Shown: positions 41,446 to 60,654 of the stretch, piece by piece | How the letters are laid out: every line of letters begins with the position of its first letter | Numbering within the stretch: the stretch's first letter is position 1 | The notes under the pieces: generated by a model | What the model saw: the letters and a program-made list of their open reading frames with translations, nothing else | Databases searched by the model: none | What the model was told of the DNA's origin: nothing | Translations under genes and position numbers: made by a program | Assembly (NCBI GenBank): GCA_017468435.1 | Contig: JAFUIP010000013.1 | Location: 1-64,000, forward strand | Length of the DNA stretch: 64,000 bases | Origin: Bacteroidales bacterium | GTDB lineage: Bacteria > Bacteroidota > Bacteroidia > Bacteroidales > UBA1402 | Direction: 5' to 3'

Positions 41446-42132
41446 TTACGATTTTTGACGATTTCTGTACTCGCTCGGCGACATATCCGTTTCCGACTTG
41501 AAGCATCGTGCGAAATACCTTGGGTCGTTGAATCCGCAGCGATACGCAATTTCAGACACCGACAAAGACCTCTGGTTGACAAGCATGATGCCGGCCTTTC
41601 GGATGCGCGCCTTCGACAGGAATTCGCCGGGTGTGATACCCATGTACGATTTGGTGTAGCGTATCAGCGTAGAGTAGCTCACGGCCATGTGCCGGGCAAT
41701 GTCTTCGACACTGAGTTCCGGATTGCTCAGATTTTCGTTGATGTATTCGGTGAGTTTCTTGATGAAATCTTCGCTTTCTTCGTCCATCTTGATGGATTTT
41801 TCCAACAGGCTCTGCGTGATTTCTTGTTTACCGATAATAGACAGGAACGCGGCCAAAACTTCGTTGTGCTTTCTGTGGATGCTCCTGATATAATGTACCA
41901 CGTAGATAATGCTGCCTGTTATTGTCAAGAATAAGAAAATGAGCAAGATGGTGGCCCAGGTCGCACCCGGGCTTGGCTTGAGCAAGACCCGGAAAAACGC
42001 ATCGAGGAATATCGCAGCGATTGGTGTCAGATGCCGGGTGGAAGCTATACGGGCAGCATCGACTTGGTATTCGAAGGAAAAGATCAGGTGCATTTTGTGG
42101 CGCCCGAAGTGAAGAGTCCGCAAACAGTGCAT
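41446..42132 (-). pseudogene. AraC-type regulator, 5'-truncated remnant
   Basis: The C-terminal 105 residues are an intact AraC DNA-binding domain (SVEDIARHMAVSYSTLIRYTK, ITPGEFLSKARIRKA, SEIAYRCGFNDPRYFARCFK). Before it is one membrane helix (about 57-82, TWATILLIFLFLTITGSIIYVV) and a short linker. This layout is the tail of a long membrane regulator (Y_Y_Y or hybrid two-component type) whose periplasmic sensor is missing. The first 55 codons are antisense to a separate coding remnant and look non-native. I read it as a truncated gene; a short membrane-bound AraC protein is the alternative. Confidence 0.6.
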
Positions 42133-42259: not shown

Positions 42260-42292
42260 CTTGTTGTAGATATTGCTTTTTTTCTATTTTTG
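42260..42292 (+). promoter_or_regulatory. Promoter of the FAS1-SusCD operon
   Basis: CTTG (42260-42263), 21 nt, then TATTTTTG (42285-42292). The ATG lies 39 nt downstream. This is the only promoter-like element found until the terminator at 60621. Confidence 0.6.
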
Positions 42293-42331
42293 CAAGTTAT
42301 TTTAATAAAGATTAACTAATTCACAGATAAA

Positions 42332-44809
42332 ATGAGTCGCTTAAAGAATTTCAAGAATTTGATTCTTAGTGTCTTGGCCCTTTCTCTGTCGGGTGTTTTT
42401 TCATCTTGTCAACATCAGATGAAGGAATACTACGAAGAACCGGAATGGCTGAAAGGCAGTATCTACGAAATCTTGCAGGAGCGAGGCGAATACGATCTGT
42501 TTTTGCAAGGTGTCGATACCTGTCAGTACACGGCTTTGCTGAAAGGTCGCAGCATCCTTACGGTGATGGCGCCCACAGATTCTTCGCTTTCCGCTTATTT
42601 GCAGAAACATTACGGATGCACCGACTGGTCGTTGGTGCCTGTTGGTGAAGTGAAAAAACTCATCGGTTTCCATGTGTTGTATTATGCTCTCGACCAGAGC
42701 AAGTTGAGCAATTTCCGTCCGAGGGAAGGCGATGGAGCCACGGCCGAAGAATTGGAAAAGAACGCCGGATTGTACTACAAGTTCCGCACGCGTAGCCAGG
42801 ATGCGCCTGAAAAACTGACCGTGAACCGTTGGATGAACGGCGAGGTAATCGACACTACTGCCAAGGAAGTGGATGTGTATCATTTGGAACGCTTCATTCC
42901 TGTGTTTTCTTCGCAAATGTTCCAGACCAAGCTTATTGATGCCAAGAGCAATTACGAATATTTCTTCCCCGAAAGCGAATGGCGCAGCGGCAATGCTTTC
43001 AATGTTTGCGATGCCGTGGTGGAAGAAATGGAAGTGATTGCCAAGAATGGTTATATCTACTTTGTCGATAGGGTCATCGAGCCTTTGGAAACCATTCACA
43101 AGGAACTGAAGAGCAACGAAGATTACAGCATGTACCTGAGTTTCTTCGATAAATACGCTTATTACGCACAAGAAGAAAACTTGACCACCCTTTATGGCGG
43201 TGGTAGCACCACGTATTGGGAATGTCTGTATGAAAGGGCTTCCGGAAAGTTTACCTTGCCCAATATTGCCCAGGAATGGCCGGTGAGCGACTATAGCCAG
43301 ATGTCCATATTGTCTTACACTTCGAATACGCTGTTCGCACCTACCAACGATGCTTTCATCGAATTCTACAAGTCTTATTGGGGTATCGACGAAAAAACGG
43401 GTTATCCTGCCGAAGTTTGCTACGATTCCGTATCGGCCGATGCCATTGCCTATCTGTTGAGCAACTCATTCTACGAAGGTTCTTTGGTATTCCCCGACGA
43501 AATTGAAAGAGGCGATATCATCAATGCTTTCACCAAGACGCCTATCATGTTCGATTTGAACGATGTGCCCGAAGAAAACCGTAAGATGTGCGTGAACGGT
43601 GCTTTGTACGGATTGGATAAAATCACGCCTCCAGCCGTATTCGGTACGGTGACGGGTCCGGCTTACCAATACAAGCGCTACAGCACTTTCCTGAAGATGC
43701 TTACCAATTCGGGTATGGAAAATACGCTCACTTCCGATGCCGTGAGCTATATCATGCTCTATCCCAACAACGATCAATTGGCTTCCAACTACATTTGGTA
43801 CGATGCCGCCAGCGACAAAATCAAAAATGGCTTGGTGGGCGATGCGACTCAGCCTAACTTGGGCTCTGCCGACCAGACGAAATATGTCAATGCGCACATT
43901 ATCAGTGTAGAAAACAAGCATCCTTTGACCGCCAACGGCGATATTCAGGTGATGCGAACGCTCTCTCCCGACTACAAGCTCTATTGGTATATGAATGCCG
44001 AAGGCAAGATTACCAACAGCTTCAAGTACAACGAATTGATTCAATATGCGGGTCATAATACCATCACCAAGGATTCTATCTATACCGATATCCAGGAATT
44101 GACTTTCCGCGATGAGGCTTGGGTGAATGGTCATTGCTATGAATACGATACGCAAAACAGCACCTTCCTGTTGCCCGGTTCCAATGCCGAGGCTGTCATC
44201 CAGAATTTCGTGCCTTTCATGTGGTTGCATCGTAACGACGAAGGCACACTCTTCCAAGGCTTTATCAAGGTGCTCGGATTGGCCAACCTTATCGACGAAG
44301 AATCCATGACCATGAACTATATGACCGAAAACTGTCTGATGCTCATTCCCACCACCGAGGCTATCAAGCAAGCCATCGTGGCCGGCGAGTTTCCGCACTT
44401 GAGCGTTCCGCAGGGCACCTTGGCCGAAGATCCTGCTTTCTGGGATTTGGTGGTGGCTCCCGCCGACGAAACGCCTGCACAAGACAGTTTGCAGCATTAT
44501 ATGTTGTCTTATTTCTTGCCCGAAAGCATGTCTCCCGCCTTGGATTATCCTTATTATAAATGGGGCATCGATATTGAAGCCGACGGCGGTTATGCCTCTA
44601 TTGCCGATATTTCCGGAGAAATGGCAGCTCTTGTCTATGTAAATATTTACGATAAAGGAAATGATGGTCTGACGGCCAAGGTACAGGGAATGGATAAAGA
44701 AGTTCCTTTCCACGGCGCTTACGATTACCTGCCTTTCGTTTTCGATGATGGTTGTGTGCATTTCCTCGATGGTATTTTCGAAGACAAATGGCCTCACGAT
44801 ATTCAATAA
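42332..44809 (+). CDS. Multi-FAS1 (fasciclin) surface lipoprotein A
   Basis: 825 residues with a lipoprotein signal (VFSSC, Cys26). Several fasciclin-like units are visible from their two typical landmarks: an NTLFAPTNDAF-type H1 motif (about 73 as LTVMAPTDSSL, about 332, and a degenerate LMLIPTTEAI near 669) and a GYIYFVDRVI or VHFLDGI-type end (about 240, 415 and 810). FAS1 domains usually mediate adhesion or ligand contact; there is no enzymatic motif. It is first in the operon, 19 bp before SusC. In Bacteroidetes such lipoproteins often accompany SusCD pairs, but their ligands are undefined. Surface exposure is likely but not proven. Confidence 0.85.
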   Translation: MSRLKNFKNLILSVLALSLSGVFSSCQHQMKEYYEEPEWLKGSIYEILQERGEYDLFLQGVDTCQYTALLKGRSILTVMAPTDSSLSAYLQKHYGCTDWSLVPVGEVKKLIGFHVLYYALDQSKLSNFRPREGDGATAEELEKNAGLYYKFRTRSQDAPEKLTVNRWMNGEVIDTTAKEVDVYHLERFIPVFSSQMFQTKLIDAKSNYEYFFPESEWRSGNAFNVCDAVVEEMEVIAKNGYIYFVDRVIEPLETIHKELKSNEDYSMYLSFFDKYAYYAQEENLTTLYGGGSTTYWECLYERASGKFTLPNIAQEWPVSDYSQMSILSYTSNTLFAPTNDAFIEFYKSYWGIDEKTGYPAEVCYDSVSADAIAYLLSNSFYEGSLVFPDEIERGDIINAFTKTPIMFDLNDVPEENRKMCVNGALYGLDKITPPAVFGTVTGPAYQYKRYSTFLKMLTNSGMENTLTSDAVSYIMLYPNNDQLASNYIWYDAASDKIKNGLVGDATQPNLGSADQTKYVNAHIISVENKHPLTANGDIQVMRTLSPDYKLYWYMNAEGKITNSFKYNELIQYAGHNTITKDSIYTDIQELTFRDEAWVNGHCYEYDTQNSTFLLPGSNAEAVIQNFVPFMWLHRNDEGTLFQGFIKVLGLANLIDEESMTMNYMTENCLMLIPTTEAIKQAIVAGEFPHLSVPQGTLAEDPAFWDLVVAPADETPAQDSLQHYMLSYFLPESMSPALDYPYYKWGIDIEADGGYASIADISGEMAALVYVNIYDKGNDGLTAKVQGMDKEVPFHGAYDYLPFVFDDGCVHFLDGIFEDKWPHDIQ

Positions 44810-44828
44810 CACTTAAACACGCAAAAAG

Positions 44829-47800
44829 ATGAAAATGATCAAGAAACTTTCTATGATGCTGTTGATGGTGTTAATGACTATCTCAGCTTATGCGCAAGGA
44901 AACGTACTGACAGGTACGGTCTATGAAATATTTGATGGCAAACAAGAACCTTGTATGGGTGTGAACGTGGCTGTGGTAAATGCACAAAACCGTCTGTTGA
45001 CGGGTGTTACCACCGATATCAATGGTCAGTATGCCATCCGTATGCCGGCCGGCGAAAATCTTACCTTGCTGTATTCTTTCATTGGTTTGGTACCGCAACG
45101 TATTGCTTACACCGGACAGAAAACCCAGGATGTGGTGATGAAGGAAGATGCCAAGGCGCTTGGAGAAGTGGTGATTGCTCAGGAGCGTACCTACCGTTCG
45201 GAATTGGGTGTGTCGGAACGTGCCTTTACTGGTTCGAGCCAGCGTATCTCCATGGACGAAGTGATGGAATCTTTGCCGGTGAACTCGGTAGAAGAAGCCC
45301 TTCAGGGTCAGTTGGCCGGTGTGGATATTCTTACCAGCGGTGACCCCGGTGCCAAAGGTTCTATTCGTATTCGTGGTACGGCCACGCTCAACTCCAATGC
45401 CGATCCGCTTATCATCATCAACGGAGTGCCTTACAATACCGATATCGACGACGATTTCAACTTTGCCACGGCCAGTACCGAAGACTTTGCCGACATGTTG
45501 GCCTTGAACCCCAACGATATCGAAAACATCGAAGTATTGAAGGATGCTGCTTCTACGGCTATTTACGGTACCAAGGGTGCCAACGGTGTGTTGCTCATTA
45601 CCACCAAACGCGGTGCCAAGGGTAAACCTCAATTCGTATTCAGCCATAAATCTACTTTGAAGATGGAGCCGGAATCCATTCCCATGCTCACGGGCGACGA
45701 ATACACGGCCTTCATGCAGGATGCCATCTGGAATACGGCCAATGCCCGTGGTCTGGATGCTTCCGGCGATTTGCTCAATATGTTGTTCAGCGAAAAATCG
45801 TACGCCATCGGCTATCAGCCCGACTGGAGCTATTTTGACGAATACAACACCAACACCGATTGGTTGGGCGAAATCCGCAAGAATGCTTACTCTACCGACA
45901 ACAACTTCTCTATGAGTGGTGGTGGCGACCGTGCAACCTATCGTTTCTCTTTGGGTTGGACCATGGAAGACGGTACCACCCGCAACAACGACTTGCAGCG
46001 TCTTACTTCCAGCTTGCGCATCGGTTACAACTTCTCCGACCGCATGAACGTGAACGCCGAGTTTACCTATTCGGATACGAACAACGATCAGACCTATATG
46101 TCAACTTCGAGCCTTCGCTCCGAAGCGCAGCGCAAGATGCCCAACAAGTCTCCGTATTATATCAACGACGAAACCAAGGAACCAACGGATATTTATTTTA
46201 CCTATCAGGATGAGAATGAATTCCAGGGCGCTTTCAACGGTAGCAAGAACTTCCATCCCATCGCCATGGTGGACGAAAGTTTCAACAAAACCAATACCAA
46301 GGAAGAGAAAATCACCATCAGTCCTACTTATACCATCCTTTGGAACGAAAACCAACAACCTATTTTGCGTTACCAGGGTTATGTGTCTATGAAGTTTAAA
46401 ACGGTGAAATCGCGCAAGTTCCTGCCTCAGGAGGCTACCGGTGTGAATATCGAAAACGAGAACTCAAATTACAGCTACGATGGTTACACCAACAACTTCT
46501 CTTTGCAGTCGGAAACCAAATTGCTTTACAACCAAAGCTTTGCCGACGACCAGCATCAGTTGGTGGGAGCAGCCATCTGGCGTACCACGCAATCGACGGG
46601 TTCTACGTATGCCACAGAAGTATATGGTGTTGCTTCCAGCGGCATGGGCGATCCGGTGACCGGTGGTACTATCTCTGCCGGCTCTTTGAACTCCGGCACC
46701 AGCGATGCGCGTACCTTGTCGGGCATTGCCAACCTCAACTACACCATGTTCCGTTGGATTACCTTGAACGGTACCTGGAACTACGAAGGTAACTCAGCTT
46801 TGAGCCAGGACAATCGTTGGGCGCTCTTCCAGTCGTATGGCGGTGCTTTGAACTTGCAAGATTTTGAACCTGTTCAGCTTTGGACCTCGGAATGGCTGTC
46901 GCAAGCCAAACTGCGTGTGAGCTGGGGTCAGTCGGGTAAGGCTCCTTCGGGCACTTCGCCCTATGTGGGTACTTACACGGCCCTCACCGACAAGTACGGA
47001 ACCATGACGCCTGTGGTGCCCAACAATATGCAGCTCAATAAGTTGAAATGGGAAACCTCGGAAGAATGGAACTATGGTTTCGACTTGGGCTTGTGGCAAG
47101 ACCGCATTAAAATGACTTTCGATTATTATAGCAAAACCACCACCGACCTCTTGCAGAAGAGTGTGAAGGTGGCCAGTACCTCGGCCTTCTCCAGCATTGC
47201 CTACACCAACTCCGGCTCTTTGAGAAACGAAGGTTGGGAATACCGCATCGACTGGCGCATCCACGAAAGCAAGGATTGGCGTTGGAACATGGACTTCAAC
47301 ATCAACCGCAACGTGAACACCATTTTGGAAGTGCCCGACAATATTGCCATGGAAACTTATTCCTTCAAGAATGGCCAATATGCGCAGAAGATTTTGGCCG
47401 GTACGCCCGTAGGTTCTTTCTTCGGTTATCGTTACTTGGGTGTTTACCAAAACCTGGAAGATACTTATGCCAAGGACGACGAAGGCCGCGTGATGCGCGA
47501 TTTGCTGGGTAATCCGGTGGTAATGAAGAACGGTACTTACACTTGCTATCCTGGTGACGCCATGTACCAGGATATCAACTACGACGGTACCATAGACGAA
47601 AACGATATCGTGTACTTGGGCAACTGCAATCCCGTGGTGACCGGTGGTGCAGGTCTTACCGCCCGCTACAAGAAAATGTCGATGACCATGCGTTTCCACT
47701 ATCGTCTGGGACAGAAAATCATCAACCAGGCCCGTATGAATAACGAAGCCATGTACAACTCCGACAATCAGTCTAAATCGGTGTTGCGTCGTTGGCGTAG

Positions 47801-48125
47801 TGAAGGCGACCAGACGGATATTCCACGCGCTTTGTACAATTATGGTTTGAACTACCTGGGTAGCGACCGCTTCGTGGAAGACTGTTCGTATATTCGTTTG
47901 CAGACCGTTTCTTTCAACTATGCGCTGCCGAAATCATTTGCCGAAAAAATCAAGGCAAGTTCGGCCAGCATGTTCCTGACCTGCTACGACTTGTTTACGC
48001 TGACCAATTACAAGGGTCAAGACCCGGAAGTGACATTGCCTACTTCTGTGACGGCTTTGGCAAAGGATAATTCTTCTACGCCTCGAAGCCATCGTTATGC
48101 AGTGGGTTTGACTGTTAAATTTTAA
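44829..48125 (+). CDS. SusC/RagA-family TonB-dependent outer-membrane transporter 1
   Basis: 1098 residues with a signal peptide (about 1-22, ending AYAQG). A carboxypeptidase-regulatory-like domain (about 25-105) is followed by a TonB-box-like acidic region, the plug (SVEEALQGQLAGVDILT, SIRIRGTATLN, IENIEVLKDAASTAIYG) and a 22-strand barrel rich in aromatic-ended beta strands. The C-terminus ends in an aromatic (VGLTVKF). It would take up a ligand delivered by the SusD partner encoded 12 bp downstream. The substrate cannot be read from sequence. Confidence 0.95.
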   Translation: MKMIKKLSMMLLMVLMTISAYAQGNVLTGTVYEIFDGKQEPCMGVNVAVVNAQNRLLTGVTTDINGQYAIRMPAGENLTLLYSFIGLVPQRIAYTGQKTQDVVMKEDAKALGEVVIAQERTYRSELGVSERAFTGSSQRISMDEVMESLPVNSVEEALQGQLAGVDILTSGDPGAKGSIRIRGTATLNSNADPLIIINGVPYNTDIDDDFNFATASTEDFADMLALNPNDIENIEVLKDAASTAIYGTKGANGVLLITTKRGAKGKPQFVFSHKSTLKMEPESIPMLTGDEYTAFMQDAIWNTANARGLDASGDLLNMLFSEKSYAIGYQPDWSYFDEYNTNTDWLGEIRKNAYSTDNNFSMSGGGDRATYRFSLGWTMEDGTTRNNDLQRLTSSLRIGYNFSDRMNVNAEFTYSDTNNDQTYMSTSSLRSEAQRKMPNKSPYYINDETKEPTDIYFTYQDENEFQGAFNGSKNFHPIAMVDESFNKTNTKEEKITISPTYTILWNENQQPILRYQGYVSMKFKTVKSRKFLPQEATGVNIENENSNYSYDGYTNNFSLQSETKLLYNQSFADDQHQLVGAAIWRTTQSTGSTYATEVYGVASSGMGDPVTGGTISAGSLNSGTSDARTLSGIANLNYTMFRWITLNGTWNYEGNSALSQDNRWALFQSYGGALNLQDFEPVQLWTSEWLSQAKLRVSWGQSGKAPSGTSPYVGTYTALTDKYGTMTPVVPNNMQLNKLKWETSEEWNYGFDLGLWQDRIKMTFDYYSKTTTDLLQKSVKVASTSAFSSIAYTNSGSLRNEGWEYRIDWRIHESKDWRWNMDFNINRNVNTILEVPDNIAMETYSFKNGQYAQKILAGTPVGSFFGYRYLGVYQNLEDTYAKDDEGRVMRDLLGNPVVMKNGTYTCYPGDAMYQDINYDGTIDENDIVYLGNCNPVVTGGAGLTARYKKMSMTMRFHYRLGQKIINQARMNNEAMYNSDNQSKSVLRRWRSEGDQTDIPRALYNYGLNYLGSDRFVEDCSYIRLQTVSFNYALPKSFAEKIKASSASMFLTCYDLFTLTNYKGQDPEVTLPTSVTALAKDNSSTPRSHRYAVGLTVKF

Positions 48126-48137
48126 TGCCCCTTAGAG

Positions 48138-49730
48138 ATGAAAAAGATATATGTATTGTTATTGAGTGTTGTCTTGCTCCTGGCTTCTTGTTCGGAATTT
48201 CTGAACGTGACGCCCGAAAACTCGCAAGTGGCCGACGATTATTGGCGCACGCAGCAAGACGTGGAAAATGTGTTGATAGGTGGTTATTATTACCTGCGCT
48301 CTACCGTGGTCGATTACCTCATTCCTTGGGGAGAATGTCGCGCGGGATTGGTGTACAACGCCAAGTCCAACACCCGTTTGCAGACCTGGCAAATGCAGGC
48401 TACCAATACTTCGCTCTGCGATTGGTCCACCTTCTACAAGATTATCAACGTGGCCAACACCGTTCTGGCCCGTGCAGACGAGGCTTGTCAGAACGACGAG
48501 ACCTATACCGAAGCCGCACGCAACAGCCACTACAGCGAAGCTTATTTCTTGCGTGCCCTCAGCTACTTCTATTTAGTGAGAAACTTCCGCGACGTGCCCC
48601 TTTTGCTCGAAGCTTACGAAGACGATAATGTGGTGATCAATGTGCCGAAGACTTCGGAAGATACCATCCTGACTCAAATCAAGGCCGATATCATAGCTGC
48701 TTTGGAAACCGGAGCCGCCAAGGAAAATTTTGCCACTACTTGGGAAACCAAAGGTCGTGCCACCCGTTGGGCTTTGTATGCGCTCATGGCCGATGTCTGC
48801 CTGTGGAAAGGCGACTATGCCGATGCCATCACTTACAGCGATTTTATCTTGAATGCCACCAGCGTGAACGCGCCCCGATTCATGTCAACGCCCAGCCGCT
48901 CGGTGTTCATGTCAATGTTTAATCCGGGCAACAGCAACGAATCTATCTTCGAACTGCAATGGAACCAGGAAGAAAACCAGAGCAACAACCTGCCCATTCT
49001 TTTTGATAACGATCCCGACGCTACGCCCGATGCTACATACGTGGTGTCTGAAGGTGCCTGCGCCGATTTCGTGAACGAATACATCGAAATCTTGGGCGAC
49101 GAATTCGAAGAAGGCGTGCCGGCTACCAAGGAATCTCCCAGAACCTATCGTGCTTCTTTCTCGCCCAAGGAAGGTGAGGGTATTTCTCGCGGTATGTCAA
49201 GAGGTTATGTGTGGAAATACATTGGCTCGACCACCGAAGATAAAAAGCGTACCACCAACTATTACGATCCTAACTTCATCATCTACCGCGTGGCCGATGT
49301 CATTCTGATGAAGGCTGAAGCTTGTCTTTTGGTAGATGGTGGCGAACCTACGGCCGAACATAAATTGGAAGCCGTGAAGCTGATCAACCAGATTCGTCGT
49401 CGTGCTGCCATCGACGATTTCTGCGACGAGGATTTGTTGATGGTGGAATTGTATTCACAAGAAGAATTGCTCAGCGAGGTGCTGGATCAGCGTAAGCTCG
49501 AATTCCTGGGCGAAGGCAAAATCTGGTACGATATGCTGCGTATGGGCCGCGCCAACAACAACCAATACAAGAACTCCTTGCTGGTGGAACAGGTGCTCAA
49601 CTACAACTCTTGTGCCAGCATCTCTTGGTTAAAATCGGTGCTTACTTCCGACAATGCGCTCTTCCTGCCCATCATGAGCACGGAATTGGAACGCAACGAC
49701 AAATTGATTCAGAATCCTTATTATAAATAA
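48138..49730 (+). CDS. SusD/RagB-family nutrient-binding lipoprotein 1
   Basis: 530 residues with a lipobox (LLASC, Cys18). The SusD N-terminal pattern is clear (SEFLNVTPENSQVADDYWRTQQDVENVL), followed by helical TPR-like repeats and the conserved C-terminal region (LLSEVLDQRKLEFLGEGKIWYDMLRMGR), ending in IQNPYYK. It forms a lid over the upstream SusC. The second gene of the first SusCD pair, it is followed after 6 bp by a FAS1 lipoprotein. Confidence 0.95.
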   Translation: MKKIYVLLLSVVLLLASCSEFLNVTPENSQVADDYWRTQQDVENVLIGGYYYLRSTVVDYLIPWGECRAGLVYNAKSNTRLQTWQMQATNTSLCDWSTFYKIINVANTVLARADEACQNDETYTEAARNSHYSEAYFLRALSYFYLVRNFRDVPLLLEAYEDDNVVINVPKTSEDTILTQIKADIIAALETGAAKENFATTWETKGRATRWALYALMADVCLWKGDYADAITYSDFILNATSVNAPRFMSTPSRSVFMSMFNPGNSNESIFELQWNQEENQSNNLPILFDNDPDATPDATYVVSEGACADFVNEYIEILGDEFEEGVPATKESPRTYRASFSPKEGEGISRGMSRGYVWKYIGSTTEDKKRTTNYYDPNFIIYRVADVILMKAEACLLVDGGEPTAEHKLEAVKLINQIRRRAAIDDFCDEDLLMVELYSQEELLSEVLDQRKLEFLGEGKIWYDMLRMGRANNNQYKNSLLVEQVLNYNSCASISWLKSVLTSDNALFLPIMSTELERNDKLIQNPYYK

Positions 49731-49736
49731 GCCGCG

Positions 49737-51536
49737 ATGAAAAAGTTAGTAATTTTTACCTTGATACTCTGTCTGATGGCTTGTACCGACCCCTTTGCCG
49801 GACAACCTTTCATTACGCCGACAGAAATTGAAAACGAGATGACCTGTACTACTTTGCTGGAACATCGTAGCGAGGATTTCTCCATTTGGATCGAACTGTT
49901 GCGCTATGCCGACTATTACAATGGGTTGAAAGACGTGACAGCTTCCATTACTTTGTTTGCGCCTACCAACGAGGCTATGCGGGAATTCCTGCAATGGCAG
50001 GGCGTGGAAAAGGTGCAAGACTTGGATTTGACTTATGCCCGTTATGTGGTGCAGAATCATATTTTGAATGGCGCCAAAATCAACAGCGAAACCTTCATCA
50101 ACTTTGCGGTGGATGCCGAGCCTTTGCAGGTGCAGAGTTTGTTCAACGCTTACCTGAAGCCTACTTTCGGCCGTACCATCACCGAAGTGGACGATGCCGA
50201 ACGTACGGACGAAATCTTGGATGAAGAAACCTTGTTCATCAACAATCAGGCAGCCGTGCAACCTCGCGACAGCGGTGGTGTGCGCTTTACGGAAGCCTCC
50301 AACGCCATCATCTACTACATGGACGACGTTATCCGTCCTTTGGCCGAAACCATGGTCGATAAACTGGAAGAACAAGGCGAATATACCATTTTTGCGGCTG
50401 CCTGCCGTGAATCGGGCTACGACAAAGTGGTGGAAAAGGTGCGCGATACCATCCGTATTCAGGGCGGAGGCTACACCATTCAAGATTATCGTTTCACTTG
50501 TTTTGCGCCCAGCGACGATGCTATGGCTGCTGCCAACATTCATTCCTTGGACGATTTGAAAGCCCGCTGCCGCGCAGAATTGCCTCAGGCAGGCGACTCG
50601 GCGCTGTATCAGTATGTGAAGTATCATTTCTTCGATCAGGCTTACACCAAGGAACAATTCTGCAAGTTCAACAGTGTGGACGAAACCCTCATTTACGATA
50701 CGCAGTTGGATGGTCAGGTGATTATCTGCCGCAACGATACGGTAGATTATGCAGTGCCCATGCTCAACGATAAGGCTAAGTTTGTTCGTTCCAACATCGA
50801 AGCCCGCAACGGTTACATTCACAAGATGGACTACTATCTGCCTGTGTTCGAACCCGAACCTGTTACCATCAAATGGGACTTCTGCAACTCTTCCGATATC
50901 ATTGCCATTGTCAATGCTTATGGCGCTTCCAGAAGTTTGGGTAATTTGTTTACATCGGCTCTTACCAACAAGGAAGAAAAGGTGGATCTTTCGGACATGC
51001 ACCGCGATGGCGATTTTGGCCCCGTGAGCAGCTTTACGTACCAAGCCAATACGGCCAAGGCAAGCTACTCCAACTATCGTGCCGTGGGTTTTACCAAGTG
51101 TAAATATCTGAAGTCGAGTGATAAAACGAATAATACCTATGGCGCTTACATGAACAACTTGCTCAACCTTAACTTAGGTTATGCCGGCTGGATTCAGTTC
51201 AAGACGCCCACCATCATCAAGGGAAAATACAAAGTGACCTTGCATTATGCTTCGGACGTTACCATGAAAGATTTCCATTCGGCCGGTTCGCTTACCAAGT
51301 TCCAGTTCGATCCCGAGCTCGGCAAGAGCGAATGGACCAAGAATGCCCAGGTATATAAGGGTTTGCCCACCAAAGGCATGATGTATTGCAGTGCCGATTT
51401 AGTTTTGTTCGAAGAAATTGAATTTGACAGTTCCAACAGACATCTCTTTAAGGCTATCATGTTGGATATCAATGCGAAGACGAATAGCGTTTATCACCAG
51501 ATGTGGGATTATCTTTTGTTTGAACCTATCAAATAA
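49737..51536 (+). CDS. FAS1 surface lipoprotein B
   Basis: 599 residues with a lipobox (CLMAC, Cys16). Two FAS1 domains are recognisable: the first has ITLFAPTNEAM (about 75) and IIYYMDDVIRPLAE (about 188), the second FTCFAPSDDAM (about 250) and GYIHKMDYYLPV (about 357). The C-terminal 220 residues are beta-rich (YAGWIQFKTPTIIKGKYKV) and may be a ligand-binding jelly-roll; that is inference. It probably sits on the cell surface next to the SusCD complex. Confidence 0.85.
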   Translation: MKKLVIFTLILCLMACTDPFAGQPFITPTEIENEMTCTTLLEHRSEDFSIWIELLRYADYYNGLKDVTASITLFAPTNEAMREFLQWQGVEKVQDLDLTYARYVVQNHILNGAKINSETFINFAVDAEPLQVQSLFNAYLKPTFGRTITEVDDAERTDEILDEETLFINNQAAVQPRDSGGVRFTEASNAIIYYMDDVIRPLAETMVDKLEEQGEYTIFAAACRESGYDKVVEKVRDTIRIQGGGYTIQDYRFTCFAPSDDAMAAANIHSLDDLKARCRAELPQAGDSALYQYVKYHFFDQAYTKEQFCKFNSVDETLIYDTQLDGQVIICRNDTVDYAVPMLNDKAKFVRSNIEARNGYIHKMDYYLPVFEPEPVTIKWDFCNSSDIIAIVNAYGASRSLGNLFTSALTNKEEKVDLSDMHRDGDFGPVSSFTYQANTAKASYSNYRAVGFTKCKYLKSSDKTNNTYGAYMNNLLNLNLGYAGWIQFKTPTIIKGKYKVTLHYASDVTMKDFHSAGSLTKFQFDPELGKSEWTKNAQVYKGLPTKGMMYCSADLVLFEEIEFDSSNRHLFKAIMLDINAKTNSVYHQMWDYLLFEPIK

Positions 51537-51546
51537 TTGAGTGCGT

Positions 51547-53430
51547 ATGAAAAAGACAATCAGTATATTATGTGCCATGTTTGCCTTGTGTCTGACTTCT
51601 TGTCAAGACCAATGGGCAGAACATTTCGGACAAGAAGATGTCCTTACGGCCGAAGGTGTGGTGTTGAGCAATCTGTATGCCGACGAATACCTGCAATCTC
51701 AAGGCAATCTTCAGACAATGAAAGCTTTGTATCAGGAAGCCGGCTTGATAGATAAAATGGCCAAGGGCGCTTACTGCACGCTCATCGTGAGTGAAGATGC
51801 TTATTTGGCCGCTACCGACGACCTGACTGCCGATGAAAATTTTGCCAAAAACCTGTTTTCTGCGGTGCCTGTGCCTCCTTCATCATTGACGGAAGGTTTC
51901 GGTATCTATACCCTGAGCGGAAAGAATCTTTGGGTTACCAAAGACGCTGAAGGCCAAACCTATCTGAATAGGGTAGAAGTGGAACAGATAGTGAAGGTGC
52001 GCAATGGCTACATTTATTACGTGAAGGGCGTTCTTCCCGTGCAAGCTTCTATTTATGAGTACATTCAGTCGCTTGGCAAGGAATACTCCATGTTCAAACA
52101 GTTGATTGCGTATTTCGAAGAAGTGTATTTCGATGCCGCTGCTTCTACGCCTTGCGGTACCGACCAGATGGGTAACACCATTTATGCTGACTCTGTGATG
52201 GCTATCCGCAATACCTTGATGGATCGTTATACCGAAGACGGACTTTCTTATTGGAACATGCACAGCGAAGCTTATCAATCGACCCTGTTCATTCCAAGCA
52301 ACGACTTGATTAAAAAAGCTTTCGATGATGCTATCCTGAATATTCCCGAATGGCTCAATCGCTCGGCCACCGCAGCCGACACCTTGAAGTTTGCCAAGTG
52401 GATGGTGAGCAGTTTCTTCGTGGACAAGCGTTTGGCTCCCGAAGAGGTGGCTGCCTCCGTTCCCGGACAGTTTGAATGCGTGGGCGGACATATCCGCGAA
52501 ATCAACGAAGCTACCGATAAGGAAATGTTTACGGCTTACACGGCGGCCCAATGGAAACCTTCCGTGCAGACGGTGAATGCGGCCGAACCCGTGGAATTGT
52601 CGAATGGAACCGCATATTATCTGACGAATTACAAGATTCCTAATCATATTGTCATTTGGCGTGTGAAATCTCGTTTCTACCAGATTTGGGCGGCTTTGAA
52701 TGCCGAACAGAAAGGTTGGGACGATGCCACTTCTCAAGCCACGGAAGGCGGTTATTTCCGTTGGGATGGTTGGGAAAAACCCGATAACTCGGTAGAAGGC
52801 CAAAGTGCTTTTGAATTGTCATCTACCTTGCCCACCATGTATTATTATTTGCTCACGGCGGCTCCTTCGGCCAAGGCTCAGGCCGATTCCGCAGAAGTGT
52901 CGGTAGATTTCGACGGCCTTTTGTACAACGAGTCGGAACGTGCTTTCGGTTTGAAAGAAGTGAACCTGCCTGCCGGCGAATATTATCTGCGCATGGGCTT
53001 CAAGCACTCATTGCCTTATTCTGTCAGCATTTATTTCTGTGGTCAGGACGAATATTTCGGTCCGCAGAACTGCTTGGTGAAGGATATGTCTTTGATTGCC
53101 ACCGGTTCTAACTTCCACTTCGACCGTGGTGGTGCCATGGAAGGTTTGGACTTCTTCGGTTCGGAATCTATCGGCTATCCCGAATATTTCGACTGGCGTT
53201 GGTGGTACGACCAGGATCCCGCAAAGTATCAGAAGGCTTCGGCTTACGATACCGATGGTTATCAGGTGGCCATTGTCAATCTGAAGCGTCCGGGCAATTT
53301 CAAGATCAAGGTTTCGTCTGTGGATAATGCGGCCTTGTATAAGAATGGTCGTCAGGACAGAAGCAAAAGCGATGTGAATCAGTTGATGATGTATCACTGG
53401 TGTTTGCGTCCTACTCAAAATAATTATTAG
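51547..53430 (+). CDS. FAS1-like surface lipoprotein C
   Basis: 627 residues with a lipobox (CLTSC, Cys19). FAS1 landmarks are CTLIVSEDAYL (about 77) with GYIYYVKGVLPV (about 155), and TLFIPSNDLIKKAF (about 240). The C-terminal half has the same general beta-rich organisation as lipoprotein B (LPAGEYYLRMGFKHSL, YQVAIVNLKRPGNFKIKV). The ATG at 51547 is preferred over the in-frame GTG two codons earlier. It lies 10 bp after gene B and 10 bp before the second SusC, so it may serve that pair. Confidence 0.82.
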   Translation: MKKTISILCAMFALCLTSCQDQWAEHFGQEDVLTAEGVVLSNLYADEYLQSQGNLQTMKALYQEAGLIDKMAKGAYCTLIVSEDAYLAATDDLTADENFAKNLFSAVPVPPSSLTEGFGIYTLSGKNLWVTKDAEGQTYLNRVEVEQIVKVRNGYIYYVKGVLPVQASIYEYIQSLGKEYSMFKQLIAYFEEVYFDAAASTPCGTDQMGNTIYADSVMAIRNTLMDRYTEDGLSYWNMHSEAYQSTLFIPSNDLIKKAFDDAILNIPEWLNRSATAADTLKFAKWMVSSFFVDKRLAPEEVAASVPGQFECVGGHIREINEATDKEMFTAYTAAQWKPSVQTVNAAEPVELSNGTAYYLTNYKIPNHIVIWRVKSRFYQIWAALNAEQKGWDDATSQATEGGYFRWDGWEKPDNSVEGQSAFELSSTLPTMYYYLLTAAPSAKAQADSAEVSVDFDGLLYNESERAFGLKEVNLPAGEYYLRMGFKHSLPYSVSIYFCGQDEYFGPQNCLVKDMSLIATGSNFHFDRGGAMEGLDFFGSESIGYPEYFDWRWWYDQDPAKYQKASAYDTDGYQVAIVNLKRPGNFKIKVSSVDNAALYKNGRQDRSKSDVNQLMMYHWCLRPTQNNY

Positions 53431-53440
53431 GAGGAAAGTT

Positions 53441-56400
53441 ATGAAGATGAGAATATTTCCCTTTATCCTGATGCTGTGTCTGAGCTTTGGTTTGCAGGCA
53501 CAGACAACGTATAAAGCCCGCGTGCAATCTACCGATGGAAGCGCCATTGAAGGTGTCATCGTGTCGGTGCAGGGCGATAAGGCTACGGCCATTACCGATG
53601 CCAATGGTGAATTTACTTTGACCACGGAACGCAAGGATGCTTACGTGCAGCTGGCCACGCCGGGATTCTACACCCGAAAAGTGGCTTTGACTTCTGCCAC
53701 CGAAAGCATAGTGATGGTGCCTGTCGGAACGCCTCTCTACAATGGCGAAGTGGTGCTCGACCAGTCGGTGCAGGTTCGTGACGAAGCTTCGGCCATTCTG
53801 AACACTGTCTTGAACAAGGATTTTAAGACGAATCCTTCTTCTTCGCTTGCCTGGCAAGATGTGGATCCGGCTTTGAAAGTGGAACGCAAGAGCGGCATGC
53901 CCGGCGAAGGCGCCTACTTCAATATCCGCGGTCTGCATACTTTGAACGCAGAAAACACGCCGCTTATTTTGGTGAACGGTGTGCCTTACTTAGCCAATAC
54001 TTCGGTAAGCGATGTGAACAATGCCTACAGCCGCGACGCTATGTTTGCCTACAACGCTGCCGATATTCGCAGCATCACCGTGTTGAAAGGAGCAGAGGCT
54101 GCCATGTACGGTGCCTTGGGTTCTAATGGCGTTATCTTGGTGGAAACCGAGCAGGCTACCAGCGACAATCTGGATACCCGAATTACTTTCTCCGGAAACT
54201 ACGGCGTATCTCAAGTGAAAAGACAATTGCCCACGCTCAATGCGAGCGACTATCAAGATTATTTGATGGAAATTGGTCAGAGTCGTTATGCTTCCATGTC
54301 CGATTTCCAGAAGGATTATCCTTTCTTGGCCGGCACAGACGATTATTATTACGCTTATCTTTTCAACAACGAAACCGATTGGACATCACAAATTTATCGC
54401 CCGGCCATGGTCACGGACAATGTCTTGCGCGTGGAAGGTGGTGACGAAGTGGCCAAGTACAATATTTCTTTCGGTTATACCCGCGAAGAAGGCGTTTTGG
54501 ACAACACCAACACCAATCGTTATCATACGGCTTTGAATACCAATATCATGGTGGCTCCCGAGTTCGAGATTTTCACTTCTGTGAACTTGGCTTATATCAA
54601 CAGCAACCTGAATAATGTCGGTATGAAAGAGGAAACCAATCCTATTTTGGCAGCTTACCATGCCATGCCCAACCTGCATCCCTTCCAGAAATTGAGCGAC
54701 GGCGGCATCATCAACGGACGTTATTCCAAGTATAATGGCTGGGCGGTCAATCCCAATCCGACGCATGCTTACGATGTGGTTTCCAATCCTCTGGCCATTG
54801 TCAACACGGTGAGCAGCACCGACAAAATTTACGATGCCAACATTCGTCTGGGCTTGAATTACAAGGCTACCGACCTTTGGACGCTGACGGCTTTGGTGAA
54901 CCTCTATTACGACTATACCGAAGAATATGTCTTCACGCCCGGTGTGGATCAGGCAGCTATTATTCCCCAGTTGTACGGAACGGGTGAAAACTTCGTGTCC
55001 ATGGGTGTTTTGCGTCAGTCGGCCTATTATTACAATGTGAATGCGGCCTACCACAATATCTTTGGCGACAAGCATAGTTTGGATGCTTATTTTGGTGCCC
55101 GCGTCATGACCAAGAGCTATGAATACGATGCTTCCAGTGGTTACAACTCGGCCAACGACTACAACCGCACGCTCTCCATGGTGACCGACGAATGGAGCAT
55201 TTTCGGTAACAACGACGATTGGAAATACATGAGTTTCTACGCTCACGCCGACCATTTGTACAAGAATTTGTGGAAAACCACGGCCGGTTTGAGTATGGAT
55301 GGAACTTCGGCTTCGGGTGTGGATGCGCCGCGCTTTGGCCTTTTCCCCTCATTGTCGGCTACTTATCTGGCTGCCAACACGGGTAAACTTCCTGAGGCAT
55401 TCGACCACCTGAACCTGACGGCAGAAGTTTCGCTTTCGGGTAACAGCCGTTTCTCGTCGAACTACGGAAAGAATTATTATGTGTCCAACAACCTCTTCAA
55501 CTTAGGTACCATCGTGCGTAACGGCGTTCCCAACACGCATTTGGAATGGGAAAAGAAGGCTCAGGCCGATCTGGGTGTGGATGTGTCTATGTGGAAACAT
55601 GCTTTCGACCTTCGTTTGAATGCTTATTTCGCGCATCATTACGATTTGTTGCTCGATACCAAGATTTCGTCTGTTTATGGTTCTAACGAAGCCTATTATG
55701 CCAATACGGCCGCCATCAACAACATGGGTTTGGAATTGGCTGCTCGACTCAATGTGCTGAATACCAAAGATTGGAACTGGATGTTGTATGCCAATGCTTC
55801 TTGCATGAAGAGTCTTATTGCCGACTTGGGACAGATGCAGTCATTCATTCAAGACTACGATTTCTACAATGGCGACGATGCACAGACGCGTCTGAAAGTG
55901 GGTGAAACGCCTTACGAATTCTGGGGTTACGAAACGGCCGGTGTTTATGCCACGACGGCTCAGGCCCAAGCGCCTACCGAGGCTACCGGCAAGCCGCTGA
56001 AAACACCTTACGGTGGTTATTACCAGGGTGGTGACGTGATTTTCGTGGACCAGAACAATGACGGTACTATCAACGACAAAGACCGTGTGGCATTAGGCTC
56101 TGCAACGCCCGATCTTTATGGATCTTTCGGTACTTCATTGCGCTACAAGAAACTGACCATGACGGCCGATTTCGGATTCAGCGTAGGTAACGAAGCCTAC
56201 AATGCCACCCGTCGTCAGACCGAATCGATGGACCATTTCTACAATCAGTCGCTGGCCGTGATGAACCGTTGGCAAGTGGAAGGTCAGCAAGCTTCCATGC
56301 CGCGCGCCGCTTATGGCGACCCTTCCGGAAATGCCTTGTTTAGCGATCGTTGGATAGAAGATGCCAGCTACCTGAAACTGCGTCGCCTGATGTTGTCGTA

Positions 56401-56596
56401 CGATTTCGACCAGTCGCTGCTCCGCTTCGTGGAAGGTCGTGTGTGGATTGCAGCCGAAAACTTGTGGACCTTGACCTCTTACTTAGGCTCCGATCCGGAA
56501 TTCTCTTACAGTTATGCCGAAGCGCTCCGTGGTTTCGACTATGCCAAGGTAAGCCAGCCGGCCATGCTCCGATTGGGTGTTAATTTGAATTTCTAA
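53441..56596 (+). CDS. SusC/RagA-family TonB-dependent outer-membrane transporter 2
   Basis: 1051 residues, signal peptide about 1-21 (LSFGLQAQ). A carboxypeptidase-regulatory-like domain covers about 25-95 (ARVQSTDGSAIEGVIVSVQ). The plug has the usual FNIRGLHTLN, LILVNGVPY and IRSITVLKGAEAAMYG motifs. The barrel ends in MLRLGVNLNF. It is clearly divergent from transporter 1, so the two pairs are not a recent duplication and probably handle different ligands or different parts of one ligand. Confidence 0.95.
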   Translation: MKMRIFPFILMLCLSFGLQAQTTYKARVQSTDGSAIEGVIVSVQGDKATAITDANGEFTLTTERKDAYVQLATPGFYTRKVALTSATESIVMVPVGTPLYNGEVVLDQSVQVRDEASAILNTVLNKDFKTNPSSSLAWQDVDPALKVERKSGMPGEGAYFNIRGLHTLNAENTPLILVNGVPYLANTSVSDVNNAYSRDAMFAYNAADIRSITVLKGAEAAMYGALGSNGVILVETEQATSDNLDTRITFSGNYGVSQVKRQLPTLNASDYQDYLMEIGQSRYASMSDFQKDYPFLAGTDDYYYAYLFNNETDWTSQIYRPAMVTDNVLRVEGGDEVAKYNISFGYTREEGVLDNTNTNRYHTALNTNIMVAPEFEIFTSVNLAYINSNLNNVGMKEETNPILAAYHAMPNLHPFQKLSDGGIINGRYSKYNGWAVNPNPTHAYDVVSNPLAIVNTVSSTDKIYDANIRLGLNYKATDLWTLTALVNLYYDYTEEYVFTPGVDQAAIIPQLYGTGENFVSMGVLRQSAYYYNVNAAYHNIFGDKHSLDAYFGARVMTKSYEYDASSGYNSANDYNRTLSMVTDEWSIFGNNDDWKYMSFYAHADHLYKNLWKTTAGLSMDGTSASGVDAPRFGLFPSLSATYLAANTGKLPEAFDHLNLTAEVSLSGNSRFSSNYGKNYYVSNNLFNLGTIVRNGVPNTHLEWEKKAQADLGVDVSMWKHAFDLRLNAYFAHHYDLLLDTKISSVYGSNEAYYANTAAINNMGLELAARLNVLNTKDWNWMLYANASCMKSLIADLGQMQSFIQDYDFYNGDDAQTRLKVGETPYEFWGYETAGVYATTAQAQAPTEATGKPLKTPYGGYYQGGDVIFVDQNNDGTINDKDRVALGSATPDLYGSFGTSLRYKKLTMTADFGFSVGNEAYNATRRQTESMDHFYNQSLAVMNRWQVEGQQASMPRAAYGDPSGNALFSDRWIEDASYLKLRRLMLSYDFDQSLLRFVEGRVWIAAENLWTLTSYLGSDPEFSYSYAEALRGFDYAKVSQPAMLRLGVNLNF

Positions 56597-56600
56597 GCGA

Positions 56601-58337
56601 ATGATTATGAAGAAATTATTATATATGCCTCTCTTGGCAGTGTTGCTGGGTTTTGCTTCCTGCCAATTTTTTGAAACCGATCCGGACAATGTTTTGAACG
56701 AGGATCAGTATATTGCCAAAGAAAGTGAAATGTATCGAGGTTTTCTGGGTATCATCACCCGTATGCAGGAAGCCGGCGACCATGCCATTTTCCTCACCGA
56801 TCCGCGTTCTAATTACCTGGAAGCCACCGGCAACGCGCCCATCGCCTTGCAGAATCTTTATCGTTACGAAAGTACCGATGGCAACGAATATGCCGACCCG
56901 AAGCCATACTACGCGCTCATTGTGAGCTGCAACGACTTCATGACCAAACTCGACGATTTCTACAACCGTGTGGATGGCGCTTTGAGCGACAGTGCCAAGG
57001 TGCATATTCCCCGATTGGTGTCTTCTGCTTTGCGCCATAAGGTTTGGGGTTACTATATGTTGGGCCGCATCTACGGCGAAGCCTACTGGTACGACACCAA
57101 CATGACCGAGCTCGACAATCTCGACAACGGAAAAGTCTTCACCAAACTCGATATGAAGGGCATTTGCGATTATTGCATAGATTTGCTCGACAATGGTATT
57201 GAACTTTGCGGACAACATATTCCTGCCGATTTGGAAATGGACTGGACCTACTGGGTGAATCCCATGGGCGGCAACGCGGCTTATCAGTATTGGAACTTGA
57301 TGACGCCCCGATGGATCAATTTGCGTGCGGAACTGGCCTCTTGGCGCACCAATTACGAAGACGAAGCTGCAGCCCACGCCGATTGGCAATGGGTGCGCGA
57401 CAATGTCTTGAAATACCTGACGGAATCTTTGGTGAATGGTGGTCATTGGTATAGCTGTACCATGCAGATCATTTTGGAATATCCCAATATTTTCTGGACA
57501 GAGCAAGTGGCTTACGAGCCTCAGATCATGGGCGCCGTTTTCTACGATTATCAGAATAAGCAGACCAATCGTTTGGTACAATATTTCTGTCCTGAATATC
57601 CCGCCGACGGCTATTATCTGAAACCGGCTGAAAAGGCCTTGGAAATCTACAACGAATCGGATATCCGTGGCCCGCATCAGCGTTTGGTTTGCAATACTTT
57701 GGGCGGACAATTGGCCTTCAGCAAGTATTATTATACCCGTTTGAACAACCAAGGTTATCTGCGTCAGAATATTTTTGAAATTCAGCCCACCATTCCCATT
57801 TTCCGCGGACACGATTTGCACTTCCTTTTGGCTGAGGCTGAAAACCATTTGGGACATTGGGATGTAGCCAAGACTTTGCTCAACACCGGTTTGTTGAACC
57901 GCTTCCCCGGCGGACGTCTCACCGTTCCTGCCGACAGCCTGGACGGACAAGCCATTTGGAGTGAATATTATTGGGCCAGCGAAGATGTCAACTGGTTTGC
58001 GCCTTCGGGCGGCTACGGCGATATCGGTATCGTGGGTGCCAACCGCGGTAAGGAATACGACTTGCCTGTTATTTCGGAAGATGCCACCGAAGAAGAGAAA
58101 TTGGCTTTCGCCTTCGACAAAGACCGCATCAAGGCTTACGACTTGGCGCTTGCCGACGAGTATTTGAAGGAATTCACCGGCGAAGGAAAATCATATAGCT
58201 ACTTAGTGAAGATGGCCGAACGTTACGACAAGGATTACAAGATTGTGTTCGACCGCGTGAAAGCTAAATATGCCGATGCTTCGCAGGTGGAAGCTTCTTT
58301 GCAGAAAAAATATTTCATCGATTGGACTTTGGAATAA
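56601..58337 (+). CDS. SusD/RagB-family nutrient-binding lipoprotein 2
   Basis: 578 residues with a lipobox (GFASC, Cys21; Cys19 from the ATG at 56607). The SusD-like start (FFETDPDNVLNEDQYI) and the C-terminal conserved region (YDLALADEYLKEFTGEGKSYSYLVKMAERYD) are present, but the family-typical E-x-R-x-EL-x-x-E-G-x-R is altered. It starts 4 bp after SusC 2. A 79-bp gap separates it from the next gene, without a clear promoter. Confidence 0.92.
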   Translation: MIMKKLLYMPLLAVLLGFASCQFFETDPDNVLNEDQYIAKESEMYRGFLGIITRMQEAGDHAIFLTDPRSNYLEATGNAPIALQNLYRYESTDGNEYADPKPYYALIVSCNDFMTKLDDFYNRVDGALSDSAKVHIPRLVSSALRHKVWGYYMLGRIYGEAYWYDTNMTELDNLDNGKVFTKLDMKGICDYCIDLLDNGIELCGQHIPADLEMDWTYWVNPMGGNAAYQYWNLMTPRWINLRAELASWRTNYEDEAAAHADWQWVRDNVLKYLTESLVNGGHWYSCTMQIILEYPNIFWTEQVAYEPQIMGAVFYDYQNKQTNRLVQYFCPEYPADGYYLKPAEKALEIYNESDIRGPHQRLVCNTLGGQLAFSKYYYTRLNNQGYLRQNIFEIQPTIPIFRGHDLHFLLAEAENHLGHWDVAKTLLNTGLLNRFPGGRLTVPADSLDGQAIWSEYYWASEDVNWFAPSGGYGDIGIVGANRGKEYDLPVISEDATEEEKLAFAFDKDRIKAYDLALADEYLKEFTGEGKSYSYLVKMAERYDKDYKIVFDRVKAKYADASQVEASLQKKYFIDWTLE

Positions 58338-58368
58338 TCAATTGAACATCAAAATAATCAGTTGAACA
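58333..58368 (+). repeat. 16-bp direct repeat after the second susD
   Basis: AATAATCAATTGAACA (58333-58348) recurs at 58353-58368 with one change (A to G) and a period of 20 bp. It overlaps the susD stop codon. The 79-bp gap otherwise holds only AT-rich DNA. Confidence 0.7.
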
Positions 58369-58416
58369 ATAGAATAAAAATTCATCATTTATTTACTAAC
58401 TATTTAATTATCAATT

Positions 58417-60579
58417 ATGAAAAAAGTAATGACCACTTTGAGCTGCTTCTTGGCTGTATTCGCCATGATGGCAGAGCACGTGACTGTCAGCAGCAAGGCC
58501 GATTTCGAAGCTGCCTTCTTTGCTGAACGCACCAACGACCAGTGCGATACCATTTTCGTTAAATCGAATGGTAACGCCATCACTTTGAACAATGGTAAGA
58601 ACATGCCTTCGGCCGGTAAGATTTACATTATCGGTGTAGATAACGAAGAAGGCAAGATGTCAGGTATCAAGCATCAATGGAACCTCCCCATCAACCAAAC
58701 GAGCGACAAATTGTCTGTATTCTTTGAGAATATTGTGTTGCAAGGTGCAGGTGGTACGGCCAACTCTAAGTATTATTTCCAGACCAAGGACACCAACTAC
58801 CACTACATCGATACCTTGAAATTTACCAATTGCGTGTTCCAAGACTACAACCGTGCACTTTTCCGTGTACAGCCTGCCGAAAAACTCAATGGTTTGAAGG
58901 ATGCCGGCGATATCAACTACTTTGGCGTTGAAGGTTGTACTTTCCGTACCGGTTATCAGTTAGACAATCCTATGTCTATGTTCCGTATGGATATGCGTGT
59001 AGCCGAAATGGTATTCCGCGAAAACATGTTCTACGACTTGGGCTATGTACATTCTCTCATTCAGTTCTCTACCATGTCTGACGATGCCGGTCGTGTGGAT
59101 ATCGACTTCACTTTCGAAAACAACATTTTCATCGGTTGGAACAGCCAGAACTCTTTGATGATGTTCGACCAATATGTGGGTCCCATGTCTTCTATCAAGA
59201 TCAACAACAATATGTTCCTCGTTCCCAACTGGTACGATGCTTACAACAACAGCTTCATCGGCGATTCTATCGCCAAGGCCAATCCCGATACTTTGAGCAA
59301 TCCCAAGAGAAATTATGTGGCCAGTGTTCAATATGGTATGGTTGAATTCATGAACAATGTATTGGTAGGCTACAAGGGCCCGAGAGAAAACATTACCGAA
59401 GATGGCGAAGGTGCTTGGTTGATGGCCGATACCGTTTATCTGACCCAAGAAGACCATGGTTTCGATTGGAGCATCTTTACCGATGTCAAGTCTGACCTCT
59501 TCAATATCTGGAAGGGTGAAAAAGTTTACACTGCCGGCGTGGAAGGCGCTCCCATCGGTGTGACTTCTCTCTATACCGAAGACAAGAAATCTGTTGTGAA
59601 CGTGACCATCGCTGTCGAGGGTTCAAAATCGGCTATCGTTAAGTTGAACGAACAATCAGGTGTTTCTCTGAGCAACAAGTTCATCACCGGCGACGAAATC
59701 ACCATCGAAGCCAACCGCAAGGGTATGTTGAACAAGTTCCTCGGCTGGAGCGACGGTGTGAAAGACGAAGTTCGTACCATCACTCTTACCGGCGACCTGA
59801 ACCTGACCGCTCAGTTCGAAGAACAACCTTACATCGCTGTTTGGAACCTCGAACAACTCGACAAGAACAATGTGAAACTGGATGCTCCTTTGGCTGCCAA
59901 CTATGCTGCTGAAGAAGGTGTATATTTCTTGAAATATGCTACCCACGATGGTACCCAGTACATCGACTCTACCACGCAGGCTATCATGACGCGTAACAAC
60001 AAGATCAGCAACGATTACATCACCGACTTGCGCAACTGCTTGTTCATCCACTCAGACAGTGCCACTTTCGCTGACAAGGCTCCCGCTGATTATATCTATT
60101 TCGAAATTCCTTCTGTAGAAGCCGGTTCATACTTGATGTTCAACATCGGTACCGACAACTCTGCTTACAAGACCACCAATGTGGATGTTTCTCTGGACGG
60201 TACCACTTGGGAAACCATCAAGACTGCCGATATGTATGGCGACTATGGTCATTGGATTCAGGTAGTGGCTGAAATGCCTTCTTCATTGAATGGCAAGAAA
60301 GCTTGGGTTCGTATCAAGGGTGATGAAACCAGCGGCTACTATTCTCCCGCTGCTTTGGAAGCTGCTTTCGCTGCCGGTACTTCTCATCGTACCACCGAAT
60401 ATTTGTTCGTTAGCGAAATCTTCTACGTGAAGTCAAACTTCGTGAACGCTTTGCCTTCTGTAAACGTGGCTCCCGCCGACGAAACCATCTACGATATCTT
60501 CGGTCGTCGCGTGATGGATGTTGACAACTTGCAGCCCGGTTTGTATATCCAAGGTGGTAAGAAGTTCATGATTAAGTAA
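58417..60579 (+). CDS. Secreted beta-helix protein with InlB-like repeat and sorting domain
   Basis: 720 residues with a signal peptide (about 1-20). The first 370 residues have the short repeating strands of a right-handed parallel beta-helix (FTNCVFQDYNRALFRVQ, FGVEGCTFRTGYQL, FENNIFIGWN, INNNMFLVPN), like pectate-lyase-fold proteins, but no lyase motif is evident. An InlB-B-like repeat follows (about 395-470, FLGWSDGVKDEVRTITLTGDLN), then a jelly-roll domain and a T9SS-like tail (YDIFGRRVMDVDNLQPGLYIQ). The repeat-jelly-roll-tail module is shared with the pectinase at 8785. Codons such as AAC, AAG, ATC and TTC dominate, which suggests high expression. It is probably the last gene of the operon. 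Confidence 0.8.
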   Translation: MKKVMTTLSCFLAVFAMMAEHVTVSSKADFEAAFFAERTNDQCDTIFVKSNGNAITLNNGKNMPSAGKIYIIGVDNEEGKMSGIKHQWNLPINQTSDKLSVFFENIVLQGAGGTANSKYYFQTKDTNYHYIDTLKFTNCVFQDYNRALFRVQPAEKLNGLKDAGDINYFGVEGCTFRTGYQLDNPMSMFRMDMRVAEMVFRENMFYDLGYVHSLIQFSTMSDDAGRVDIDFTFENNIFIGWNSQNSLMMFDQYVGPMSSIKINNNMFLVPNWYDAYNNSFIGDSIAKANPDTLSNPKRNYVASVQYGMVEFMNNVLVGYKGPRENITEDGEGAWLMADTVYLTQEDHGFDWSIFTDVKSDLFNIWKGEKVYTAGVEGAPIGVTSLYTEDKKSVVNVTIAVEGSKSAIVKLNEQSGVSLSNKFITGDEITIEANRKGMLNKFLGWSDGVKDEVRTITLTGDLNLTAQFEEQPYIAVWNLEQLDKNNVKLDAPLAANYAAEEGVYFLKYATHDGTQYIDSTTQAIMTRNNKISNDYITDLRNCLFIHSDSATFADKAPADYIYFEIPSVEAGSYLMFNIGTDNSAYKTTNVDVSLDGTTWETIKTADMYGDYGHWIQVVAEMPSSLNGKKAWVRIKGDETSGYYSPAALEAAFAAGTSHRTTEYLFVSEIFYVKSNFVNALPSVNVAPADETIYDIFGRRVMDVDNLQPGLYIQGGKKFMIK

Positions 60580-60620
60580 ATAAGCTTCTCCGAATTTGAT
60601 TCGGAAAACCTATATCAAAG

Positions 60621-60652
60621 AAAGCTCGATTCTTCGGAGTCGGGCTTTTTTT
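60621..60652 (+). terminator. Intrinsic terminator with UUCG tetraloop
   Basis: A 12-bp stem (AAAGCTCGATTC / GAGTCGGGCTTT, with two G-T pairs) closes on a TTCG tetraloop at 60633-60636 with the favoured C-G closing pair, and is followed by a run of T. A second small hairpin, TCCGAAT-TTG-ATTCGGA, lies at 60589-60605. Confidence 0.9.
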
Positions 60653-60654
60653 GT

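Follow-up and report, generated by a model that had tools for sequence, protein, structure and literature searches.

A conserved seven-gene module of two SusCD pairs and three FAS1 lipoproteins in Bacteroidota, with a possible role in plant-glycan uptake

The eight-gene operon and its surroundings

An ORF check of the window, the whole stretch of 64,000 nucleotides of Bacteroidales DNA analysed here, showed eight co-directional genes on the plus strand at 42332-60579, in the order FAS1-SusC-SusD-FAS1-FAS1-SusC-SusD-beta-helix. The gaps between them were, in gene order, 19, 12, 6, 4, 10, 4 and 79 bp. The first seven genes were named A, C1, D1, F1, F2, C2 and D2 (the seven-gene module) and the eighth H. 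An intrinsic-terminator-like hairpin with a T tail (60616-60653, plus strand, 17 pairs) was the strongest of the region. These genes, their layout, the gaps and the strong terminator were as claimed in a preliminary description of this DNA, and its assignments as FAS1, SusC and SusD proteins also hold, although those of genes 5 and 7 required family profiles. The source genome is a 1.84-Mb draft of ~70% completeness. Among named relatives, a dairy-cattle colon MAG of the Bacteroidales is nearest, its F1 being 97% identical.

A promoter-like region (42260-42331, plus strand) precedes A. It contains TATTTTTG, a site of the TAnnTTTG type at 42285-42292, with TTG ~20 bp upstream. In the motif scan this was the sole Bacteroidales-type TAnnTTTG site among the intergenic gaps, and none was found in the 79-bp gap before H. 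The same motif was found seven times within the coding stretch, so the site is weak promoter evidence. The promoter-like site of the earlier description is present.

The remaining genes of the window are mostly housekeeping, and no recognised pectinase was found within it. A gene for an AraC-family regulator (41446-42132, minus strand) is oriented divergently to the operon; in the close relative L173 the gene upstream is a different one. Directly behind the terminator lies a gene for a secreted M6-type metalloprotease-like protein (60724-63861, plus strand; TIGR03296, E 7.6e-56), which may be a unit separate from the operon. An AbiEii-type nucleotidyltransferase (18821-19471, minus strand) and a HipA-type kinase (1716-2957, plus strand) are candidate toxin-antitoxin parts.

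Adjacent SusC and SusD homologues are present twice, as detected by TIGR04056, PF07980 and the D2 family profile. C1 (44829-48125, plus strand; TIGR04056, E 1.1e-204) is a SusC-type TonB-dependent transporter, in which alignment and box scoring place an NTE, a TonB-box-like EVVI and a plug. D1 (48138-49730, plus strand) is its SusD-type lipoprotein lid (PF07980, E 2.6e-30; PF14322, E 5e-16). The second, divergent SusC, C2 (53441-56596, plus strand; TIGR04056, E 1e-161), has a plug and, in the alignment, a degenerate TonB box, GEVVLD. D2 (56601-58337, plus strand), the second and divergent SusD-type lipoprotein, gave no match alone against the Pfam SusD families, but its family profile matched the SusD-type structure NanU (E 1e-8), and PF07980 was matched by 9 of 31 D2 orthologues. 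In trees built from a thinned half of the loci with two outside SusC sequences only, C1 and C2 formed separate clades and D1 stood apart from D2, so the two pairs are clearly divergent, as had been stated. The C2 proteins of L192, L193 and L203 are short (947-966 aa), apparently without the N-terminal extension domain. A relation to the BAM complex, raised by a weak BamP match on C2 (E 0.0026), was rejected; the BAM paper names no FAS1/fasciclin subunit.

The FAS1 domain fold was found by Pfam in A and F1, by family profiles in A and F2, and in the predicted structure of F1. A (42332-44809, plus strand) is a FAS1 lipoprotein of 825 aa with more than one FAS1-like unit and the lipobox SSC; it matched PF02469 (E 4.1e-11), and its family profile matched periostin (E 9e-21). 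F1 (49737-51536, plus strand) is a lipoprotein with two FAS1 domains (PF02469, E 1e-22) and a C-terminal DUF5108, according to Pfam, the model and fold matches. In its predicted structure (pLDDT 89.6) the FAS1 domains matched periostin at Z 17, and the DUF5108 region (residues 374-599) modelled as a CBM-like jelly roll. Fold matches to this region included a xanthan-binding module at Z 12.6 and, at Z about 10, CBM35; one of the CBM35 matches (Z 9.9) is a structure solved with unsaturated galacturonate. DUF5108 of F1 would thus form a CBM-like head, a fold that alone is no proof of binding. F2 (51541-53430, plus strand) is listed from GTG, and its start is likely the ATG at 51547. As a single sequence it matched PF02469 at just E 0.015, while its family profile matched TGFBIp/periostin at E 1e-42 (E 6e-43 for TGFBIp) and F1 at E 2e-20. 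An orphan F1-like FAS1 protein with no module around it was seen at 9847-11868 of L101 (G000:C19), and L157 in G005 has a similar neighbourhood.

H (58417-60579, plus strand) is a secreted beta-helix protein whose model (pLDDT 80.6) and alignment show InlB-like and CBM22-like domains; judging from the sequence, its C-terminal tail reads like a T9SS sorting signal. As a predicted fold only, the beta-helix matched PL6 alginate lyase (Z 24.3, chain residues 425-747) and pectate lyases (Z 15-17), and a further domain matched CBM22 (Z 11.9). The preliminary description had noted no carbohydrate enzyme in the operon. By Pfam this is true, and recognised carbohydrate-active enzymes adjoin the module only in other genomes; yet H models as a polysaccharide-lyase-type parallel beta-helix plus a CBM-like domain.

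Conservation of the module and its variable eighth slot

The search for gene order covered the family and the order of this bacterium as well as named contigs; the contig scan for F1 used a 10-sequence alignment, a 19-sequence alignment being too diverse. Once duplicates were removed, 122 distinct loci were obtained, and all seven genes were present in 80 of them; most of the incomplete loci were cut by contig ends. The order A-C1-D1-F1-F2-C2-D2 was kept in most of the 80 complete loci, with F1 shifted to one end in a few, and the median gaps were 10-15 bp. The lipobox pattern was found in 71-77 of the 80 copies of A, D1, F1, F2 and D2. Genomes often carry several paralogues of the module, G001 at least five complete copies. 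Its range covers rumen Bacteroidales, Prevotella, Paludibacter, Sphingobacterium, Mucilaginibacter and Rufibacter, including eight further complete modules from two families in other orders of the class. The distribution is patchy, since a close F1 was found in just 7 of 394 other genomes sampled at phylum level. Upstream of A, proteins with passenger-associated-transport repeats (PATR) were seen in 13 of 48 neighbours.

With about 80 distinct loci sharing it, the order goes beyond chance; the layout is genuine and has been conserved, and this points to selection for the whole seven-gene unit. The earlier description had named conserved synteny as a check, and its outcome is strongly positive. 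The conserved order, the separate lineages and the lipoboxes support the earlier proposal of a compound uptake machine with the FAS1 lipoproteins as extra surface subunits. In the open literature searched on FAS1/fasciclin together with SusC, SusD, PUL or pectin, the module was not described, in line with the earlier remark that no characterised system was known with this exact layout. The seven-gene machine appears to be widespread in Bacteroidota and, as far as the searched open literature goes, undescribed.

No conserved gene follows D2 among the loci; this position forms a variable eighth slot. Elsewhere this slot holds a pectinesterase (L195), GH88/105 (L206, L226 of Sphingobacterium, and L166), GH28 (L230 and L234 of Mucilaginibacter), an arabinofuranosidase (L150), GH2 (L143), GH115 (L235 of Rufibacter), a sulfatase (L162), a two-component sensor kinase (L100) or a DUF4450 protein. 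The GH115, sulfatase and GH2 neighbours are not specifically pectic, and around many modules no pectin gene lies within reach. In 20 genomes, 13 of 90 pectinesterase genes lay within 25 kb of F1, versus 3.5% expected, and only 1 of 94 GH13 control genes did. Enrichment of GH88 and GH28 near F1 was weak (P 0.048 and 0.058), and the neighbour P values are optimistic because the genomes are related and the matches are not independent. Genes for GH28 and GH88 were present in all seven module-bearing genomes outside the order. The clustering of pectinesterases near F1 is supportive, not proof, of a pectic link.

Proposed function and rival explanations

The eighth-slot enzymes, the pectinesterase clustering and the CBM-like fold of F1 strengthen a plant-glycan reading. 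We propose, with a probability of roughly 0.6, that the module is a machine of the polysaccharide-utilisation type that captures glycans at the outer membrane and imports them, with plant cell-wall, most likely pectic, glycans as its targets. From the data above we infer its substrate, complex formation and energetics. On the cell surface, A, F1 and F2 would hold the glycan or present it, with F1 contacting it through the modelled CBM-like head. Secreted or surface enzymes, from the eighth slot or elsewhere, would trim the glycan. By the pedal-bin mechanism of SusCD systems, D1 would close on C1 and TonB would energise import through C1, while C2D2 would form a second, dedicated pair that accompanies C1D1.

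The preliminary description had instead suggested a glycoprotein or peptide rather than a polysaccharide as the ligand. Animal FAS1 domains bind proteins or matrix and RagAB-type SusCD pairs are peptide carriers, so that the module might import peptides or glycoprotein fragments while its FAS1 proteins bind host or matrix protein. The secreted M6-type protease-like gene would fit such a role, but it sits behind the terminator. Plant cell-wall enzymes recur in the eighth slot, pectinesterases lie nearby, F1 carries a CBM-like domain, and the module occurs both in fibre degraders of the rumen and in Sphingobacteriia of soil type. Considering the eighth-slot enzymes together with the CBM-like model of F1 DUF5108 and the lyase-type model of H, the earlier guess is unsupported, and we regard peptide import as quite improbable and less likely than plant-glycan uptake. 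The many paralogues per genome, and the GH115, GH2, sulfatase and arabinofuranosidase genes found in the eighth slot besides pectin enzymes, would be expected of a general adhesion and uptake platform for plant glycans, whose substrate, instead of being pectin as such, varies by paralogue and depends on the eighth gene. The commonest recognisable enzymes are nevertheless pectinesterase, GH88/105 and GH28, and such a general platform seems to us unlikely.

The relation between the two pairs bears on the mechanism of the proposed glycan importer. The TonB box VDEVVV is required for the function of the SusC protein Bt1763 (PMC7782687). A segment of the EVVV type before the plug was present in C1 and mostly missing in C2, the strict pattern being found in 64 of 91 C1 versus 4 of 79 C2. 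The median similarity to DEVVVTA was 15.5 for C1 (shuffles 10) and 8 for C2 (shuffles 8), so that the C1 scores exceeded those of shuffles and the C2 scores did not. The anchor that places the box is imprecise for some C2, and a few segments come from the wrong place, but separate C1 and C2 alignments showed the same contrast. The C2 of the window has GEVVLD at the TonB-box position, so that in this protein the loss is not a clean one. These sequence comparisons suggest an asymmetric pair, in which C1 keeps a TonB-box-like motif and most C2 have no recognisable one. C2D2 would therefore probably be a partner or docking barrel, or be coupled to TonB through a divergent motif.

The two pairs may instead import different pieces of one polymer independently and have no more than the operon in common. 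C2 retains barrel and plug, and Segatella copri is known to have a tandem SusC/SusD pair in its xylan PUL (PMC11784079); yet the order of C1D1 and C2D2 is fixed across orders with the pairs seldom separated, and C2 mostly has no recognisable TonB box. We consider independent importers somewhat unlikely. An asymmetric hetero-complex of C1D1 and C2D2, in which TonB would drive C1 only, C2D2 would be a barrel for docking or gating that is itself not energised and the three FAS1 lipoproteins would sit on top, is a speculative and rather doubtful proposal. If true, it would be a new outer-membrane import architecture.

The module is a seven-gene machine of fixed order that is kept in different orders of one major class of fibre degraders, with many copies per genome. 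It would suggest a function for bacterial FAS1 and DUF5108 proteins and extend the utilisome picture by a second SusCD design; it would also help to predict the uptake of pectic fibre by uncultured rumen and soil bacteria.

Comparison with known systems

The tandem FAS1 fold of F1 is common to periostin and TGFBIp (Z 17). Unlike these two, the FAS1 proteins of the module are bacterial lipoproteins within a transporter operon, and F1 has an extra C-terminal CBM-like domain.

The pectin PULs of Segatella and Bacteroides, like the module, have SusCD near CE8, GH28, GH105 and PL enzymes (PMC11784079). Neither a FAS1/fasciclin protein nor the order A-C1-D1-F1-F2-C2-D2 is described in PMC11784079 or PMC11107044. 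The xylan PUL of Segatella copri likewise has two SusC/SusD pairs in one locus, but xylan enzymes lie in that locus and FAS1 genes are unreported (PMC11784079).

The levan and dextran utilisomes of Bacteroides thetaiotaomicron are built on a dimer of a single SusCD type, joined by one glycosidase and one SGBP (PMC7618045). They share with the module a SusC barrel with a SusD lid and, as proposed for the module, extra surface lipoproteins on SusC as well as glycan capture, processing and import. The module differs from the utilisome in its two SusCD lineages, its three FAS1 lipoproteins and its lack of a fixed enzyme.
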